A DNA stretch of 64,000 nucleotides, taken from assembly GCF_025506335.1 (NCBI RefSeq), contig NZ_JANZYO010000001.1, positions 404,074 through 468,073 on the forward strand. Reading direction: 5' to 3'. Below, in pieces: positions 45,885 to 51,518 of this stretch. Position numbers and translations under genes: made by a program. The notes under the pieces were generated by a model that worked only from the letters and a program-made list of their open reading frames with translations, ran no database searches and was not told the DNA's origin. The first letter of the stretch is position 1, and the number at the start of each line of letters is the position of its first letter. The DNA comes from Mumia quercus. Its GTDB lineage: Bacteria; Actinomycetota; Actinomycetes; Propionibacteriales; Nocardioidaceae.

Positions 45885-46778
45885 TCAGTCGCCGACGGTG
45901 TCGCGTCCGCGGCGGACCAGCTTGGGGTCGGCGTACGCGACGACCTCGGCGTCCTTGTCGGTGTAGTCGTACTGGCTCAGGAAGAACCGCATCGCGTTGA
46001 GGCGCGCCCGCTTCTTGTCGTTGCTCTTGATCGCCGTCCAGGGCGAGGCGTCGGTGTCCGTGTGGAGCATCATCGCCTCCTTCGCGTCGCTGTAGGCGTC
46101 CCAGCGGTCGAGCGACTCGATGTCCATCGGCGAGAGCTTCCACCGCCTGACCGGGTCGATCTGGCGGATCGCGAAGCGTGTGCGCTGCTCGTGCTGGGTC
46201 ACCGAGAACCACAGCTTGGTGAGGTGGAGCCCGCTCTCGGTGAGCATCTCCTCGAACAGCGGCGCCTGGTGCATGAAGCGCTCGTACTCGGTGTCGGTGC
46301 AGAACCCCATCACCCGTTCGACGCCGGCACGGTTGTACCAGGAGCGGTCGAAGAGCACGATCTCCCCGGCGGTCGGCAACCGCCGGACGTAGCGCTGGAA
46401 GTACCACTCGCCGCGCTCGGTCTCGGTCGGCTTCGTCAGCGCGACCACGCGCGCCGAGCGCGGGTTGAGGTGCTCGGTGAACCGCTTGATCGTGCCGCCC
46501 TTGCCGGCGGCGTCGCGCCCCTCGAAGAGGATGACGTGCTTGGTGCCGGTGTCTTGGGCCCAGTACTGGAACTTCAGCAGCTCCACCTGGAGGCGGTACT
46601 TCTCGCGCTCGTAGTGGTCGCGGTCCATCCGCGTGTCGTACGGGTAGTCGTCGCGCCACGTCTCGATCGGGTTTCCGCCGGGATCGATGAGGTCGGGGTC
46701 GGAGCCGTGCTCGTCGTGACGCACGGTGTAGCCCTGGCTGATCAGGTCCTCGAGGTACTCCCGGAAGTTCTGGATCAC
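45885..46778 (-). CDS. ppk2: Polyphosphate kinase 2
   Basis: A 297-residue class I PPK2. Walker A is FEGRDAAGKGGTIKRF, the lid/Walker B region IVLFDRSWYNRAGVERVMGF, and conserved RWKLSPMDIESLDRW follows. It transfers phosphate between polyphosphate and nucleotides, usually making ATP or GTP from the diphosphate. The GTG at 46778 overlaps the stop of the alanyl-tRNA-synthetase-like gene by 4 bp and has GGAG upstream. Coupling to an ATP-consuming synthetase suggests local ATP supply from polyphosphate. Confidence 0.94.
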   Translation of the reverse strand: MIQNFREYLEDLISQGYTVRHDEHGSDPDLIDPGGNPIETWRDDYPYDTRMDRDHYEREKYRLQVELLKFQYWAQDTGTKHVILFEGRDAAGKGGTIKRFTEHLNPRSARVVALTKPTETERGEWYFQRYVRRLPTAGEIVLFDRSWYNRAGVERVMGFCTDTEYERFMHQAPLFEEMLTESGLHLTKLWFSVTQHEQRTRFAIRQIDPVRRWKLSPMDIESLDRWDAYSDAKEAMMLHTDTDASPWTAIKSNDKKRARLNAMRFFLSQYDYTDKDAEVVAYADPKLVRRGRDTVGD

Positions 46779-48196
46779 AGGTGCTCCTTCTTCGTGGCCG
46801 CCCGCGAGCGCTCGCGCTGCTCGCGGACGAGGTCGTCCAGCTGGTGCTGCCAGTCCGGGTCGAGGGCGAGCGACTCGGCGCGGACCTCCTCGAGGCTGAG
46901 TTCCACGGGGAACCCGTACGTGTCCTTCCAGGCGAACAGGTCGGCGCCGGTCACGGTGCGGCCCTCGTACGACCGCACGTGCGCGAGGCCTCGTTCGAGC
47001 GTACGGCGGAACTTGCGCTCCTCGGCGGCCAGGGTCGCGACGACCTCGTCGCGGCGCTGCTCGACCTCCGGGTACGCGTCGCGGTAGAGCCCAGCGACCG
47101 TCGGGACCAGGCCGCCCACGAAGTCCTCGTCGAGCCCGAGCTCGTGCGCCTTGCGCATCGCGCGCCGCACCAGCCGCCGCAGCACATAGCCCTGCGCCTT
47201 GTTGGACGGCACCACCCCGTCGACGGCGAGGAACGTCGCGCCGCGGACGTGGTCGGCCACCACCCGGAACGCAGCGGTCGCGTCGTCGTAGCCCACGCCG
47301 CTGCGCTCCTCCAGCCGTTGCACGAGCGGCCACAGCAGGCTGGTCCGGAAGACGTCGGGACTGTCGATCACCGCGGCCGCGATGCGTTCGAGCCCGCCCC
47401 CGAAGTCCACGTTGTGCCGGGGGAGCGGGGCGAACCCGTCCTCGGTGCGCTGGTAGGACATGAAGTCGGAGTTGCCGATCTCGACGTAGCGCCCGCAGTC
47501 GCAGTTGGGGTGGCACCGAGCCCCGTACGCGGGGTTGTGCGCGAGCGAGGGGAACAGGTAGAACATCTCGGAGTCCGTGCCGCCGGGGTCGCCGAGGGGC
47601 ATCCGTTCCATCGAGTCGCCACGGCACCACCAGTTCTTGCGGCCGTAGAAGCAGATCCGCGCGCCGTCGCTGCCGATCTCCCCGGCGCGTTCGAGCGTCC
47701 CGAGGTCGGCGACGGTCCCTTCGATCCCGGCGGCGGCGAACAGGTCCTTCCACACGGCGGCGCTCTCGTCGTCCCGGGGCAGGTCGTACGTGTCGTCCCC
47801 GCCGAAACAGCTCACGTACAGGCGCGAGGGATCCAGGCCGAGACGGACGACCAGGAGCTCCCACACGGACCGCAGCTGCTCCTCCTTGCCGTAGTCGCCG
47901 AGGCTCCAGTTGCCCAGCATCTCGAAGAAGGTCGTGTGGCGGTCGTCGCCGACCTCGTCGAGGTCCTGGCTGCGCAGGCAGGGCTGGGAGTCGGCGAGCC
48001 GAGGGCCGTCGGGGTGCTCGGCTCCCTCGAGGTAGCGCAGCAGCGGTTGCATCCCGCTCCCGGTGAACAGCGTCGTGGGGTCGTCGTGCGGCACGAGCGA
48101 CGCGCGCGGGAGGATCACGTGACCGCGTTCGCGCTGGAACTCCAGGAAGGTCTCGCGCACGGCGTCGGTGTCCCTGGTGCTCGGCTGCTCGCCCAT
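46775..48196 (-). CDS. Truncated alanyl-tRNA synthetase paralogue (no editing or C-Ala domain)
   Basis: A 473-residue protein matching only the first half of a roughly 880-residue AlaRS. Class II motif 2 is recognisable (RSQDLDEVGDDRHTTFFEML, GNWSLGDYGKEE) as is motif 3 (GGGLERI, 266-272), and the helical tRNA-recognition domain ends near 440. The editing and C-Ala domains are absent. The usual GPCGPDSE reads GDPGGTDSE, EIWN reads EIGN, and a Cys-rich patch (CHPNCDC) is inserted. The NWW segment recalls short AlaRS of Patescibacteria. The ATG at 48196 follows GAGGAG. It is divergent from a lipid aminoacyl-transferase gene. Confidence 0.85.
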   Translation of the reverse strand: MGEQPSTRDTDAVRETFLEFQRERGHVILPRASLVPHDDPTTLFTGSGMQPLLRYLEGAEHPDGPRLADSQPCLRSQDLDEVGDDRHTTFFEMLGNWSLGDYGKEEQLRSVWELLVVRLGLDPSRLYVSCFGGDDTYDLPRDDESAAVWKDLFAAAGIEGTVADLGTLERAGEIGSDGARICFYGRKNWWCRGDSMERMPLGDPGGTDSEMFYLFPSLAHNPAYGARCHPNCDCGRYVEIGNSDFMSYQRTEDGFAPLPRHNVDFGGGLERIAAAVIDSPDVFRTSLLWPLVQRLEERSGVGYDDATAAFRVVADHVRGATFLAVDGVVPSNKAQGYVLRRLVRRAMRKAHELGLDEDFVGGLVPTVAGLYRDAYPEVEQRRDEVVATLAAEERKFRRTLERGLAHVRSYEGRTVTGADLFAWKDTYGFPVELSLEEVRAESLALDPDWQHQLDDLVREQRERSRAATKKEHL

Positions 48197-48294
48197 CGCA
48201 CTCCTCTCCGCCGTTCCAGCATCCGTCGCCACCGGCCCCGCCGCACGTCTGCGCTCGAGGTGCCCACCTATGACGGTGGTGTCAGCCTTGGCTC

Positions 48295-50394
48295 ATGGCG
48301 CGATGGGGTAGGGCGGTCCTTGCCGTCGTCCGGCGCCTCCCGTTCACGTCCGCGCTGGTCCTGCTGTCCCTCGTGGTGGCGGTGGCGACGACGACCGCGT
48401 GGTCACCGGCGGTGGACAAGCCGTGGTTCCACGACGTCGCGTACGGGCTCCCGTCGTTGGAGGCCGGCCGGTGGTGGACGCCGGTGACCGGCTCGTTCCT
48501 GGCGTTCCTGCCCATCCAGTACCTGCCGATCGTGCTCACGTCGGCGATCTTTGTCGGCATCGGCGAGTGGGTGCTCGGGACGAAGACGGCGGCGTGGGTC
48601 GCGATCACCGGGCAGATCGGCGCGGTCGTCTTCGTGTCGCTGGTGGTGGCGGTGCTGCGGCACACCGACTGGGCGTGGGCGCACGCCCGGGCCGAGGCGT
48701 ACGACGTGGGATTCAGCGCCGGGGCGTTCGCGGTGCTCGCGGTGGCGTCGGCCAAGATGCGCCCTCCCTGGCGGGGGCGGGTGCGGGTGCTCATGTGGGC
48801 GTACGAGATCCCCAACCTGATCCTGGTCGGCACGCTGGCCGACCTCGCCCACCTCTTCTCGCTGCTGTTCTGGCTGCCGCTGGGCCCCCGGATCGTCGGC
48901 CGACCCGCTCGCCTGTGGATCCCAGGTCTCTCGCGGTACGAGGTGCGGTGGCTCGCGGCCGGGTTCTTCTGGCTGGGTGCGGTGGTGACGCTGGCGGGAC
49001 AGTTCCTCTCCGTCGAGGGGCCGTTCGGCCACTTCGGCGGTACCGACCTCTCCTGGTGGAGCGTCATCCCGACCGTCGTCCTCGACGTCGTCATCGGAGT
49101 GGGTCTCCTGCACGGGCGCCGGCTGTGGTGGCGAGGGGCCCTGCTCGTCACGGCGGTCGCGGCCGTCCTCGCCACCGTCCCCGTGCTCACCCTGGCCTTC
49201 CGGCACGAGCGTCCGGAAGGCCTCGGGCTCTACGTGGTGATCTTGGTGTTCGACCTGATCCAGGTCGCCGTCCTCGTGCTCGGGCGGCGCGCGTTCCGCA
49301 ACCCGAGCAGGCGTCGCCGCGCGCGCGAGGGCGCGAGCGTGTTCGGAGGGACGCCGTCGGAGGGTGACCGCGACCAGGTGCGCGCGCGCCTGTCCACCCT
49401 CGGGTCGCCCAACGACCTCGCCTGGATGACGACGTGGCCGGAGAACCGGTGGTGGTTCCCTGCCGACCGCGACGGCTACGTGGCCTACCAGATCCGCAGC
49501 GGTGTCGCGCTCGGGCTCTGCGACCCGGTCGCGGAGCCCGAGGAACGTGCCGAGCTGCTCGACCTCTTCGTCCGCGTCGCCCGGGAGGGCGGGACGACCC
49601 CCTGCTTCTTCAGCGTCACCGAAGAGGTGGCCGTCTGGGCGCGGGGGCAGGGGTGGTCCTCGCTCCAGGTGGCGGAGGAGGCGGTGATCGACCTCCCCAC
49701 GATGGAGTTCCGGGGCAAGAAGTGGCAGGACGTCCGTACGGCGCTCAACCAGGCGCGCAAGCACGAGATCACCCACCGGCTCGTGAGGCTGGCGGAGGCG
49801 CCGCGCGGGATCCAGGTCCAGGTGCGCGCGATCTCCGACGCCTGGGTGGGGGACAAGGGGCTCCCGGAGATGGGGTTCACCCTCGGCGGCGTCGACGAGG
49901 CGATGGACCCGCAGGTGCTCGTAGGTCTTGCGATCGACGACGAAGGCACCGTGCAGGGGGTCACGAGCTGGATGCCGATCCACGCGGAGAACGGGGTGCA
50001 GATCGGCTGGACCCTCGACCTCATGCGCCGACTCCCCGACGGGTTCCGCTACACCATGGAGTTCCTCATCGCCTCCGCGTGCCTCGCGTTCAAGGAGCAG
50101 GGGTACGCGCTCGTCTCGCTCTCGGGGGCGCCGCTGGCGCACCTGGGTGAGCAGGACGAGACGTTCGACCGCTCGGGGATCGACCGGGTCCTCGAGGTGG
50201 TGGGGGAGACCCTGGAGCCGTACTACGGGTTCCAGTCGCTCGAGGCCTTCAAGGCGAAGTTCCAGCCCCGCTACCAGCGGCTCTACATGGTGTTCCCCGA
50301 CGAGGCCGCGCTGCCCAAGATCGGCGTCGCGCTCGGCTCGGCGTACCTCGACGGGCTGGGCCCGGCGAAGCTCTTGTCACTGGCGAGGACGTAG
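48295..50394 (+). CDS. Rhomboid-like/DUF2156 membrane protein (MprF-type aminoacyl-phosphatidylglycerol synthase)
   Basis: A 699-residue protein. Residues 17-200 form six membrane segments resembling a rhomboid fold, with GFSAG (Ser141) and an AHLFSLLF helix (His186) at the dyad positions. Further helices span about 215-340. The cytoplasmic C-terminus (about 360-690) is a DUF2156/MprF domain of the dupli-GNAT type (WWFPADRDGYVAYQIRSG, KWQDVRTALNQARKHEIT, LEPYYGFQSLEAFKAKFQPRY). Such domains transfer Lys or Ala from tRNA to phosphatidylglycerol. A divergent AlaRS-like gene starts 98 bp away, hinting at alanine. Confidence 0.85.
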   Translation: MARWGRAVLAVVRRLPFTSALVLLSLVVAVATTTAWSPAVDKPWFHDVAYGLPSLEAGRWWTPVTGSFLAFLPIQYLPIVLTSAIFVGIGEWVLGTKTAAWVAITGQIGAVVFVSLVVAVLRHTDWAWAHARAEAYDVGFSAGAFAVLAVASAKMRPPWRGRVRVLMWAYEIPNLILVGTLADLAHLFSLLFWLPLGPRIVGRPARLWIPGLSRYEVRWLAAGFFWLGAVVTLAGQFLSVEGPFGHFGGTDLSWWSVIPTVVLDVVIGVGLLHGRRLWWRGALLVTAVAAVLATVPVLTLAFRHERPEGLGLYVVILVFDLIQVAVLVLGRRAFRNPSRRRRAREGASVFGGTPSEGDRDQVRARLSTLGSPNDLAWMTTWPENRWWFPADRDGYVAYQIRSGVALGLCDPVAEPEERAELLDLFVRVAREGGTTPCFFSVTEEVAVWARGQGWSSLQVAEEAVIDLPTMEFRGKKWQDVRTALNQARKHEITHRLVRLAEAPRGIQVQVRAISDAWVGDKGLPEMGFTLGGVDEAMDPQVLVGLAIDDEGTVQGVTSWMPIHAENGVQIGWTLDLMRRLPDGFRYTMEFLIASACLAFKEQGYALVSLSGAPLAHLGEQDETFDRSGIDRVLEVVGETLEPYYGFQSLEAFKAKFQPRYQRLYMVFPDEAALPKIGVALGSAYLDGLGPAKLLSLART

Positions 50395-51402
50395 CGCCTC
50401 GTCCACGCGCAGCAGCAGCGCCGTCACGTGGAAGCCCGTCCCGACGGCGGCGATCACCACGTACGGGGTCTGGACCGCGCCCGCGTGCAGCGCGAGGTTC
50501 ACCGGATACGTCGAGTGCGTGAGGTTGCCGAACCTCTCCAGCGTCTCGAGGTACGCCGCGGGCGACAGCCGGTCGGCCCAGTGGTCGAGCAGGGCGCGCG
50601 AGCCCTGGTGGGTGATGAGCGAGACGTCGGCGCCGCTGAGCCCGTGGCGTGCGAGCAGCTCGGCGACGAGGTCGGGCAGCCCGTCGCGCATGATCGTCTG
50701 GTAGACCTCGACGCCGGTGTCGGGCTCGAGAAGGTACGTCGGTGCCGCGTGGCCGTCTTCGCCGACCGGGATCCCGGCCCAGTCGTGCGCCTGGCGCGGG
50801 CGTACGGCCATCGTCATCGACGAGTAGCCCCAGCCGAACGTCCGAGTCTGGTGGTCGACGAGGCGCAGCGCGCCGCCCGGCGAGAGGACGGCGGCGCCCG
50901 CGCCGTCCCCGATCGCCTGGGCGTGCCCGCGGCGGTAGTCGACGTGGCGGGTCCAGTTGGACCCGGTGACGACGAGCACGCGCTCGCAGCCGCCGGCCAC
51001 GATCGCCTCGTGCCCGTGCACGACGCCGAGGAGGAAGTTGCTGAAGTCGCTGTTCAGCGGCACCACGAGGCTGTCCTCCCGCATGCCGAGGCGGGCGTGG
51101 ACCTCGTACAGGGAGTTTGGGGTGAAGTACGCCGGCACCGACGCGTACCCGTAGATGCGGTCGACGTCGGTCGCGTCGAGTCCCGCCTCGTCGAGCGCCT
51201 GCTGGCAGGCGTCGACCATGAAGCTCTCGATCTCCTCGTCCGTGCTGAGCACCCGGCGCTGCCCGGTGCCGGTGAAGAGGTCGGCCTCGGCGACCCCGGT
51301 CGGCCCCGGCGTCCGGTCGAGCGCGGAGTACACCGGGTCGTCGTCCTCGCGGATCCGCTTCGGCACTGCCCAGCCGGTCCCTGTGATCCCCGGATCAGTC
51401 AT
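50377..51402 (-). CDS. 3-oxoacyl-ACP synthase III-like protein lacking the active-site cysteine
   Basis: A 341-residue thiolase-fold protein of KAS III type. His is present in LITHQGSRALLDHW and Asn in RFGNLTHSTYPVN. At the nucleophile position, however, the usual LNAACAGF reads LNSDFSNFLLG, with no Cys. It cannot form the normal acyl-enzyme, so it is either degenerate, an esterase/transferase variant or a non-catalytic partner. The last 18 bp overlap antisense with the end of the DUF2156 gene. No acyl-carrier protein is encoded near it. Confidence 0.82.
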   Translation of the reverse strand: MTDPGITGTGWAVPKRIREDDDPVYSALDRTPGPTGVAEADLFTGTGQRRVLSTDEEIESFMVDACQQALDEAGLDATDVDRIYGYASVPAYFTPNSLYEVHARLGMREDSLVVPLNSDFSNFLLGVVHGHEAIVAGGCERVLVVTGSNWTRHVDYRRGHAQAIGDGAGAAVLSPGGALRLVDHQTRTFGWGYSSMTMAVRPRQAHDWAGIPVGEDGHAAPTYLLEPDTGVEVYQTIMRDGLPDLVAELLARHGLSGADVSLITHQGSRALLDHWADRLSPAAYLETLERFGNLTHSTYPVNLALHAGAVQTPYVVIAAVGTGFHVTALLLRVDEALRPRQ

Positions 51403-51518
51403 GTGTCGTCCCCCTGGTCGCGTGGTGTCACAGTGTGCTGGGCCCAGGGGTCAGCCACGGATTAAGGTGCTCCCACGCGTCGTACGCCGTCCCCGCCCTC
51501 TGAGCCTCCTGGAGCACC

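Follow-up and report, generated by a model that had tools for sequence, protein, structure and literature searches.

Dedicated aminoacyl-tRNA synthetases paired with an aminoacyl transferase are already known in two forms, as fused proteins (LysX and ErdS) and as free-standing pairs in antibiotic pathways (VlmL/VlmA and AcmD/AcmF). LysX consists of an MprF domain fused to a lysyl-tRNA synthetase and the fungal ErdS of an aspartyl-tRNA synthetase fused to a DUF2156 transferase (PMC9437257), a free-standing extra synthetase accompanies a transferase in the valanimycin system VlmL/VlmA (PMC2922099), and the ascamycin system AcmD/AcmE/AcmF includes an extra synthetase, a transferase and an alpha/beta-hydrolase, AcmE, that removes alanine (PMC12945691). 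A mini-alanyl-tRNA synthetase that has the catalytic and tRNA-recognition domains only, and charges tRNA-Ala, is encoded by Tupanvirus (TuAlaRS; PMC10036535). In the 64,000-nucleotide stretch of the Mumia quercus genome analysed here (the window; contig NZ_JANZYO010000001.1, positions 404,074 to 468,073), a gene for a short alanyl-tRNA synthetase (AlaRS; 46775..48196, minus strand) lies next to a divergent gene for a membrane protein with an MprF-type transfer domain (48295..50394, plus strand). On the basis of their domains, intact active-site residues, conserved linkage, co-occurrence, tree position and an empty insertion site in a relative, the two genes probably, though by no means certainly, form a two-enzyme aminoacyl-lipid module, in which a dedicated editing-free source of Ala-tRNA serves an AlaDAGS/AlaPGS-like lipid transferase and the adjoining polyphosphate kinase gene, PPK2, is a mere neighbour.

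The window pair resembles LysX and ErdS in that a dedicated class II synthetase is paired with a DUF2156 transferase. However, LysX and ErdS are each one fused protein charging Lys or Asp, whereas the window carries two genes and an AlaRS that appears to come from another phylum, and the transfer domains of LysX are far from the window transferase in the tree. VlmL/VlmA and AcmD/AcmF share the free-standing synthetase and transferase with the window, but their acceptors are small molecules of secondary metabolism, whereas the window transferase is a membrane enzyme of the MprF type. TuAlaRS has the same two domains as the window AlaRS but is virus-encoded and related to the AlaRS of its amoeba host, whereas the bacterial short forms appear to derive from Saccharibacteria and are extra copies.

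AlaDAGS has in common with the window protein an MprF-type transferase with a short membrane region. Window-type relatives are found beside a membrane-anchored esterase of the alpha/beta-hydrolase family PF00756 (the hydrolase below), which recalls the pesT-alaDAGS pair, pesT presumably being the gene of the esterase partner of AlaDAGS; the window's own genome holds no match to the esterase of one such locus (L170) at E <= 0.001. A delta-pesT delta-alaDAGS strain is named in PMC10580965, the available part of which mentions no dedicated synthetase for AlaDAGS. The window transferase belongs to a subfamily of its own (25 rows, support 100/100) in a tree that includes no Corynebacterium sequence.

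Searches of the open-licence literature, outside which most subscription papers lie, brought up no description of an MprF-type membrane enzyme served by its own free-standing AlaRS taken from an epibiont phylum, and we know of no earlier dedicated supply of alanine for a lipid. If the module is real, it would be a third genetic way to supply an MprF-type enzyme with aminoacyl-tRNA, after fusion (LysX, ErdS) and the housekeeping pool, and would document gene flow from epibionts with reduced genomes into the phylum of their hosts.

The short AlaRS and the transferase

The AlaRS gene encodes 473 aa from the ATG at 48196 to the stop TGA at 46777-46775 on the minus strand, or 485 aa from an alternative upstream GTG at 48232. 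The product matches PF01411 (tRNA-synt_2c) over profile positions 2-435 of 552 only (E 1e-98), contains the catalytic and tRNA-recognition domains only, and ends at the editing boundary with neither an editing domain nor C-Ala. In the tree described below it falls in a clade of 12 rows (clade A, support 100/99). The class II catalytic core residues R87, E104, W202, N254, D276 and R283 are all present, and these six positions are retained in every clade A row; we take them to be Arg and Glu of motif 2, the alanine-pocket residues Trp, Asn and Asp, and Arg of motif 3. At the two positions that read G3:U70, the window AlaRS has the conserved Asn (N344) and Asp (D437), and among the 12 rows this pair is lost only in L170. 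A predicted model (pLDDT 90.6, built with 26 sequences) matches the catalytic fragment of E. coli AlaRS (3hxu) with a Z score of 44.2 and an rmsd of 2.3 over 418 residues. Judged from these residues and the model, the protein looks like a working synthetase without editing domain or C-Ala, and the earlier note on this DNA was right to call it an editing-less AlaRS, as the catalytic and tRNA-recognition residues are kept and the protein stops at the editing boundary.

Two variations were seen within clade A. Five AlaRS (L165-L169) have GLAR instead of GLER at motif 3, and all other rows printed retain the Glu. In the L170 AlaRS, Ser and Glu take the place of the G3:U70-reading Asn and Asp, and loss of the conserved pair is also described for the Tupanvirus mini-AlaRS (PMC10036535).

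The transferase gene starts at the ATG at 48295, 98 bp from the ATG of the divergent AlaRS gene. It encodes 699 aa, a membrane region fused to an LPG_synthase_C (MprF/DUF2156) domain (PF09924; 257.9 bits against a cut-off of 27.5, E 1.3e-76). Its relatives in the PDB are AlaPGS and MprF (E 5.5e-26 to 1.9e-22), the NCBIfam equivalog cut-offs for MprF flippase/synthase and LysX are not reached (NF033480, 163 of 600 bits; NF002821, 126 of 742 bits), and the transfer domain is 63% identical to a relative in genome G019. Rhodococcus transferases fall outside the 25-row window subfamily. Rhodococcus genomes have one LysX-like and one other homologue, as PMC10580965 describes for the CMN group, and by analogy with that description these Rhodococcus transferases should be AlaDAGS.

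On the N-terminus of the transferase, PF20401 gives E 0.001 in the window protein, below the Pfam cut-off of 27 bits. It was found at 1e-5 to 3e-5 in two of the seven window-type relatives scanned (the other five gave none at E <= 0.1) and also in a Tsukamurella plasmid transferase, with 19-25 of 27 bits wherever it occurred. The fold prediction for the membrane region was poor (pLDDT 53.8, from 4 sequences), and the label 'rhomboid-like', which the earlier note gave to this N-terminus, is weakly supported by the profile matches.

Transferase relatives are present on actinobacterial plasmids. The transferase on a Tsukamurella plasmid (L244:4813-7977) has an extra membrane region of ~350 aa in front, and a separate gene of 355 aa just downstream of the L170 transferase (L170:10896-11963) has a start that is similar, by eye, to this extra region; the two may represent a further component. 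A full-length alaS was seen on a plasmid of Tsukamurella tyrosinosolvens (H37; NZ_LR134463.1), and another plasmid of the strain carries a window-type transferase, the two plasmid records being assigned to one strain from their accession numbers and source.

Recurrence of the AlaRS-transferase pair

A sample of 393 genomes of the class was searched for the short AlaRS at E <= 1e-80 and for the transferase at E <= 1e-40, limits that were set by us; the two draws had the same size and shared handles, and were taken as one genome set. The short AlaRS was found in 7/393 genomes, all of them within the 28/393 that carry the transferase (hypergeometric p 4e-9, or 6e-8 without the window's own genome). 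When counted by genus, 5/5 genera with the short AlaRS fell within the 13/137 with the transferase (p 3e-6, or 4e-5 without the window's own genus). The transferase is present in all 12 clade A genomes and in one of the three genomes of a second clade of short AlaRS, clade B.

The AlaRS gene is linked to the transferase or the hydrolase in 7 of the 12 clade A loci, in four arrangements. AlaRS and transferase genes are direct neighbours in five loci, with divergent orientation in the window and in L170 and convergent orientation in L051, L054 and L057. In L169 the hydrolase lies ~4 kb and the transferase ~6 kb from the AlaRS gene, and in L166 the hydrolase is 46 bp downstream of it. A match to the L170 hydrolase was found in 9/12 clade A genomes, and a PF00756 esterase accompanies transferases of both kinds, the window subfamily and the Rhodococcus type. 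These comparisons of gene content and neighbourhood indicate that the partner of the AlaRS is the divergent LPG_synthase_C transferase and not PPK2. The tie that the earlier note proposed between a separate editing-less AlaRS and an MprF-type transferase is thus supported, as the pair turns up in further genera with varying gene orientation and co-occurs far above chance. The short AlaRS was also tried as a marker of a transferase subclade and rejected. To explain its distribution over the transferase tree takes 12 changes, close to the mean of 13.0 obtained by shuffling, so that it co-occurs with transferases in general and comes and goes freely among carriers.

In the proposed module, the short AlaRS would activate alanine with ATP and then charge tRNA-Ala, and the transfer domain would pass the alanine from Ala-tRNA to a membrane lipid, both steps as expected from the protein families. 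The acceptor would most likely be diacylglycerol or phosphatidylglycerol, by analogy with the relative AlaDAGS in Corynebacterium, and in other lineages the membrane-anchored alpha/beta-hydrolase may work with the same transferases. We infer the charging of tRNA-Ala in the cell, the use of that Ala-tRNA pool by the transferase and the lipid that is modified. The amino acid handed over may be Ala alone or, given the lack of editing, Ser and Gly as well, and the mischarged tRNA suggested by the earlier note may or may not play a part. The short AlaRS would be an extra gene from a Saccharibacteria epibiont, stripped of an editing domain for which a lipid-making enzyme has no use, and is presumably an accessory supply of aminoacyl-tRNA that relieves the housekeeping AlaRS.

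Several points weigh against this module. Related genomes enter the 2x2 counts as if they were independent, and the p values ignore relatedness beyond the genus. The transferase is found without the short AlaRS in 21/28 genomes, indicating that it does not need it, and Brevibacterium and Brachybacterium (clade B) have the short AlaRS without the transferase. For five of the 12 clade A AlaRS genes (L049, L050, L165, L167 and L168), the flanks read contain no transferase or hydrolase gene, and G347 and G423, like the window's own genome, have no match to the L170 hydrolase at the E-value limit given above. The motif 3 glutamate is lost in the five clade A relatives already mentioned, and the window AlaRS is on a long branch, which may mean relaxed constraint.

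It is unlikely, though still to be reckoned with, that the short AlaRS is instead a stress- or inhibitor-resistant backup of the housekeeping AlaRS and lies near the transferase through shared mobility and not through shared chemistry. An inhibitor-resistant extra AlaRS is known in AcmD, for ascamycin (PMC12945691), transferase relatives are plasmid-borne as noted above, and the clade B AlaRS of Brevibacterium and Brachybacterium, from genomes without the transferase, lie beside ribonucleotide reductase and metal-uptake genes. However, a backup role predicts neither the co-occurrence in 12/12 clade A genomes nor the linkage in 7/12 loci in four arrangements, and loss of editing would be a poor trait in a backup for translation. 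A plasmid search for the short AlaRS gave 73 matching records, none of which reached 60% identity, the best of the 15 listed having 37.5%. At the clade B loci L064 and L065 (Brevibacterium and Brachybacterium), the AlaRS gene follows genes for a ribonucleotide reductase beta subunit, an FMN reductase-like protein and a metal ABC transporter, all named by eye, and the short AlaRS may serve another purpose there.

Origin of the short AlaRS

A scan of named genomes for relatives of the AlaRS gave 584 confirmed relatives, of which the best 80 were retained. Within these 80, the close relatives came from Rhodococcus, Rhodococcoides, Williamsia, Pseudonocardia, Subtercola, Brevibacterium and Brachybacterium, with Saccharibacteria mixed in. 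In the tree, the actinobacterial short forms and a Saccharibacteria group make up a single set of 26 rows (support given as 100*) that is far from the actinobacterial housekeeping AlaRS. The Saccharibacteria group comprises 11 rows, eight titled Saccharibacteria, one titled Patescibacteria (L058) and two titled only 'bacterium' (L052 and L053). The sister of clade A, at 97/95, is L052, from a 0.7-Mb genome with the bare title 'bacterium', and the three rows of clade B (97/92) are joined at 100/100 with L055 (Saccharibacteria) and L058. A single origin of the actinobacterial short AlaRS was rejected, as clades A and B forming one clade had p 0.00015 in the AU test, for which this grouping was named after the first tree had been seen.

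In the 11 Saccharibacteria-group rows, 139-148 residues extend beyond the point at which the window AlaRS ends, and these include HTxxH- and CGGPH-type motifs, which we take to be the AlaRS editing motifs. The 12 clade A and three clade B rows have only 0-7 residues there. The 11 Saccharibacteria-group genomes have one AlaRS each, the second rows being pieces of a split match (G522 and G524) or a match of 70 positions (G520). The short AlaRS is always an extra copy, as a full-length alaS was found in 14/14 other actinobacterial hosts and also in the window's own genome (G000:C13, 888 aa from ATG), as the earlier note had asked. The best plasmid-borne matches of this full-length alaS, in Streptomyces, Tsukamurella and Nonomuraea, are 56-60% identical, in keeping with an actinobacterial genome. 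The simplest history appears from the tree to be that actinobacteria captured this AlaRS from Saccharibacteria at least twice, the editing domain being lost each time at the same boundary, and the two parallel losses of the proofreading domain may mark a switch from translation to another use. Saccharibacteria are reported as epibionts that grow on actinobacteria (PMC10633639).

A zinc-site switch was considered and dropped. The CHPNCDCG stretch of the window AlaRS, common to most rows of the Saccharibacteria group, is missing from clade B and from some clade A rows, with no clear functional link. Seven AlaRS loci were found on viral contigs, six of them with 36-40% identity across most of their length and the seventh a 39-residue piece at 59%, and none of the seven loci has a transferase match. 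Three IMG/VR contigs of 90-411 kb that are classed as viral (L043-L045) encode an AlaRS whose ~445 aa leave no room for an editing domain.

A more elaborate possibility, which we regard as doubtful, is that actinobacteria repeatedly took the housekeeping AlaRS of their Saccharibacteria epibionts, cut off its proofreading half and turned it to membrane lipid alanylation; lacking proofreading, it would also load serine and glycine, and the resulting mixed aminoacyl-lipids would alter the host surface on which the epibiont lives.

The insertion site and PPK2

In the same-genus genome G057, the match to the window stops at 46777 and resumes at 51511, leaving ~750 unmatched bases in the gap. The segment missing at this syntenic site (46778..51510) holds the genes for the AlaRS, the transferase and a beta-ketoacyl-ACP synthase III-like protein (50377..51402, minus strand; PF08545/PF08541), indicating that the three entered together, as a single block, immediately upstream of PPK2. 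In a second same-genus genome, G038, the flanks, PPK2 (92%) and the ketosynthase (89%) are intact, and the AlaRS and transferase are present only as fragments. This joint decay of AlaRS and transferase beside an intact PPK2 speaks for the two-enzyme module. No intact short AlaRS was found in the 148 other sampled genomes of the family, in which the AlaRS matches apart from that of G038 were at most 45% identical, among the matches listed, and resembled housekeeping AlaRS. The conservation of the neighbourhood in relatives, which the earlier note had raised, is thus absent within the family but present across the class, where the pair recurs in other genera.

The absence of intact copies from the family, the decayed copy in G038 and the long branch of the window AlaRS would also fit an insertion on its way out, with AlaRS and transferase as relics that have no present role in this strain. 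We consider this very improbable, as neither reading frame is interrupted (473 and 699 codons), both have the GC pattern of coding sequence, and the AlaRS retains the catalytic positions checked.

PPK2 (45885..46778, minus strand; 297 aa) matches PF03976, and also TIGR03707 above the curated cut-off of that model (374.3 bits against 301.8). Its start, the GTG at 46778, overlaps the AlaRS stop by 4 bp, the sequence GTGA being common to both. The earlier note had this overlap and the 98-bp divergent spacing of the transferase correct, and all three genes appear to be real, with a third-position GC of 0.95-0.97 in the window genes, which is the pattern of real genes. However, the AlaRS-PPK2-transferase trio that it proposed is not supported. 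PPK2 is found at 85-92% identity in four of five same-genus relatives, none of which has an intact AlaRS, and it adjoins none of the remaining 11 AlaRS genes of clade A in the flanks examined. As PPK2 is kept in relatives in which the AlaRS and transferase are absent or decayed, it was judged from these comparisons to be a resident gene and a bystander, with the AlaRS and transferase as the unit, and its separate history led to the rejection of the trio as an ancestral unit.

That PPK2 is nevertheless a working part, regenerating ATP from polyphosphate for the charging reaction, is hardly credible. The 4-bp overlap could allow translational coupling today, and two genomes of another genus (L205 and L206), neither with a short AlaRS, carry a more remote PPK2 relative (29-30% identical) at ~4-5 kb from their window-type transferase. 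Against it stand the close PPK2 in the four relatives without an intact AlaRS, its survival beside the decayed AlaRS in G038, and the other 11 clade A AlaRS genes without a PPK2 alongside. Charging also yields AMP, whereas PPK2 of the TIGR03707 type is an enzyme of ADP and GDP. The least credible alternative, that the short AlaRS is itself an AcmF-like aminoacyl-tRNA-dependent transferase placing alanine on a small molecule with the neighbouring protein as its partner, can appeal to the same domain content in AcmF, but AcmF is reported to be without the ATP/alanine-activation residues (N219Q and D232E; PMC12945691), whereas the window AlaRS retains the pocket residues N254 and D276, as do 12/12 clade A rows, with positions mapped via an alignment to E. 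coli AlaRS and not to AcmF.

A dedicated tRNA beside the AlaRS was ruled out, as an ARAGORN scan found no tRNA in the 12 loci searched, the only one in the window being a tRNA-Thr at 2588, and a promoter and terminator scan of 48000-48500 found nothing. The ketosynthase gene that arrived with the same insertion is convergent with the transferase gene, overlapping it by 18 bp, and outside the window's own genome it was matched only in G038 among the loci compared. The window's genome has a second PPK2 (G000:C12:157059-157748) that is 62% identical to the first, and a similar one is present in five other sampled members of the genus.

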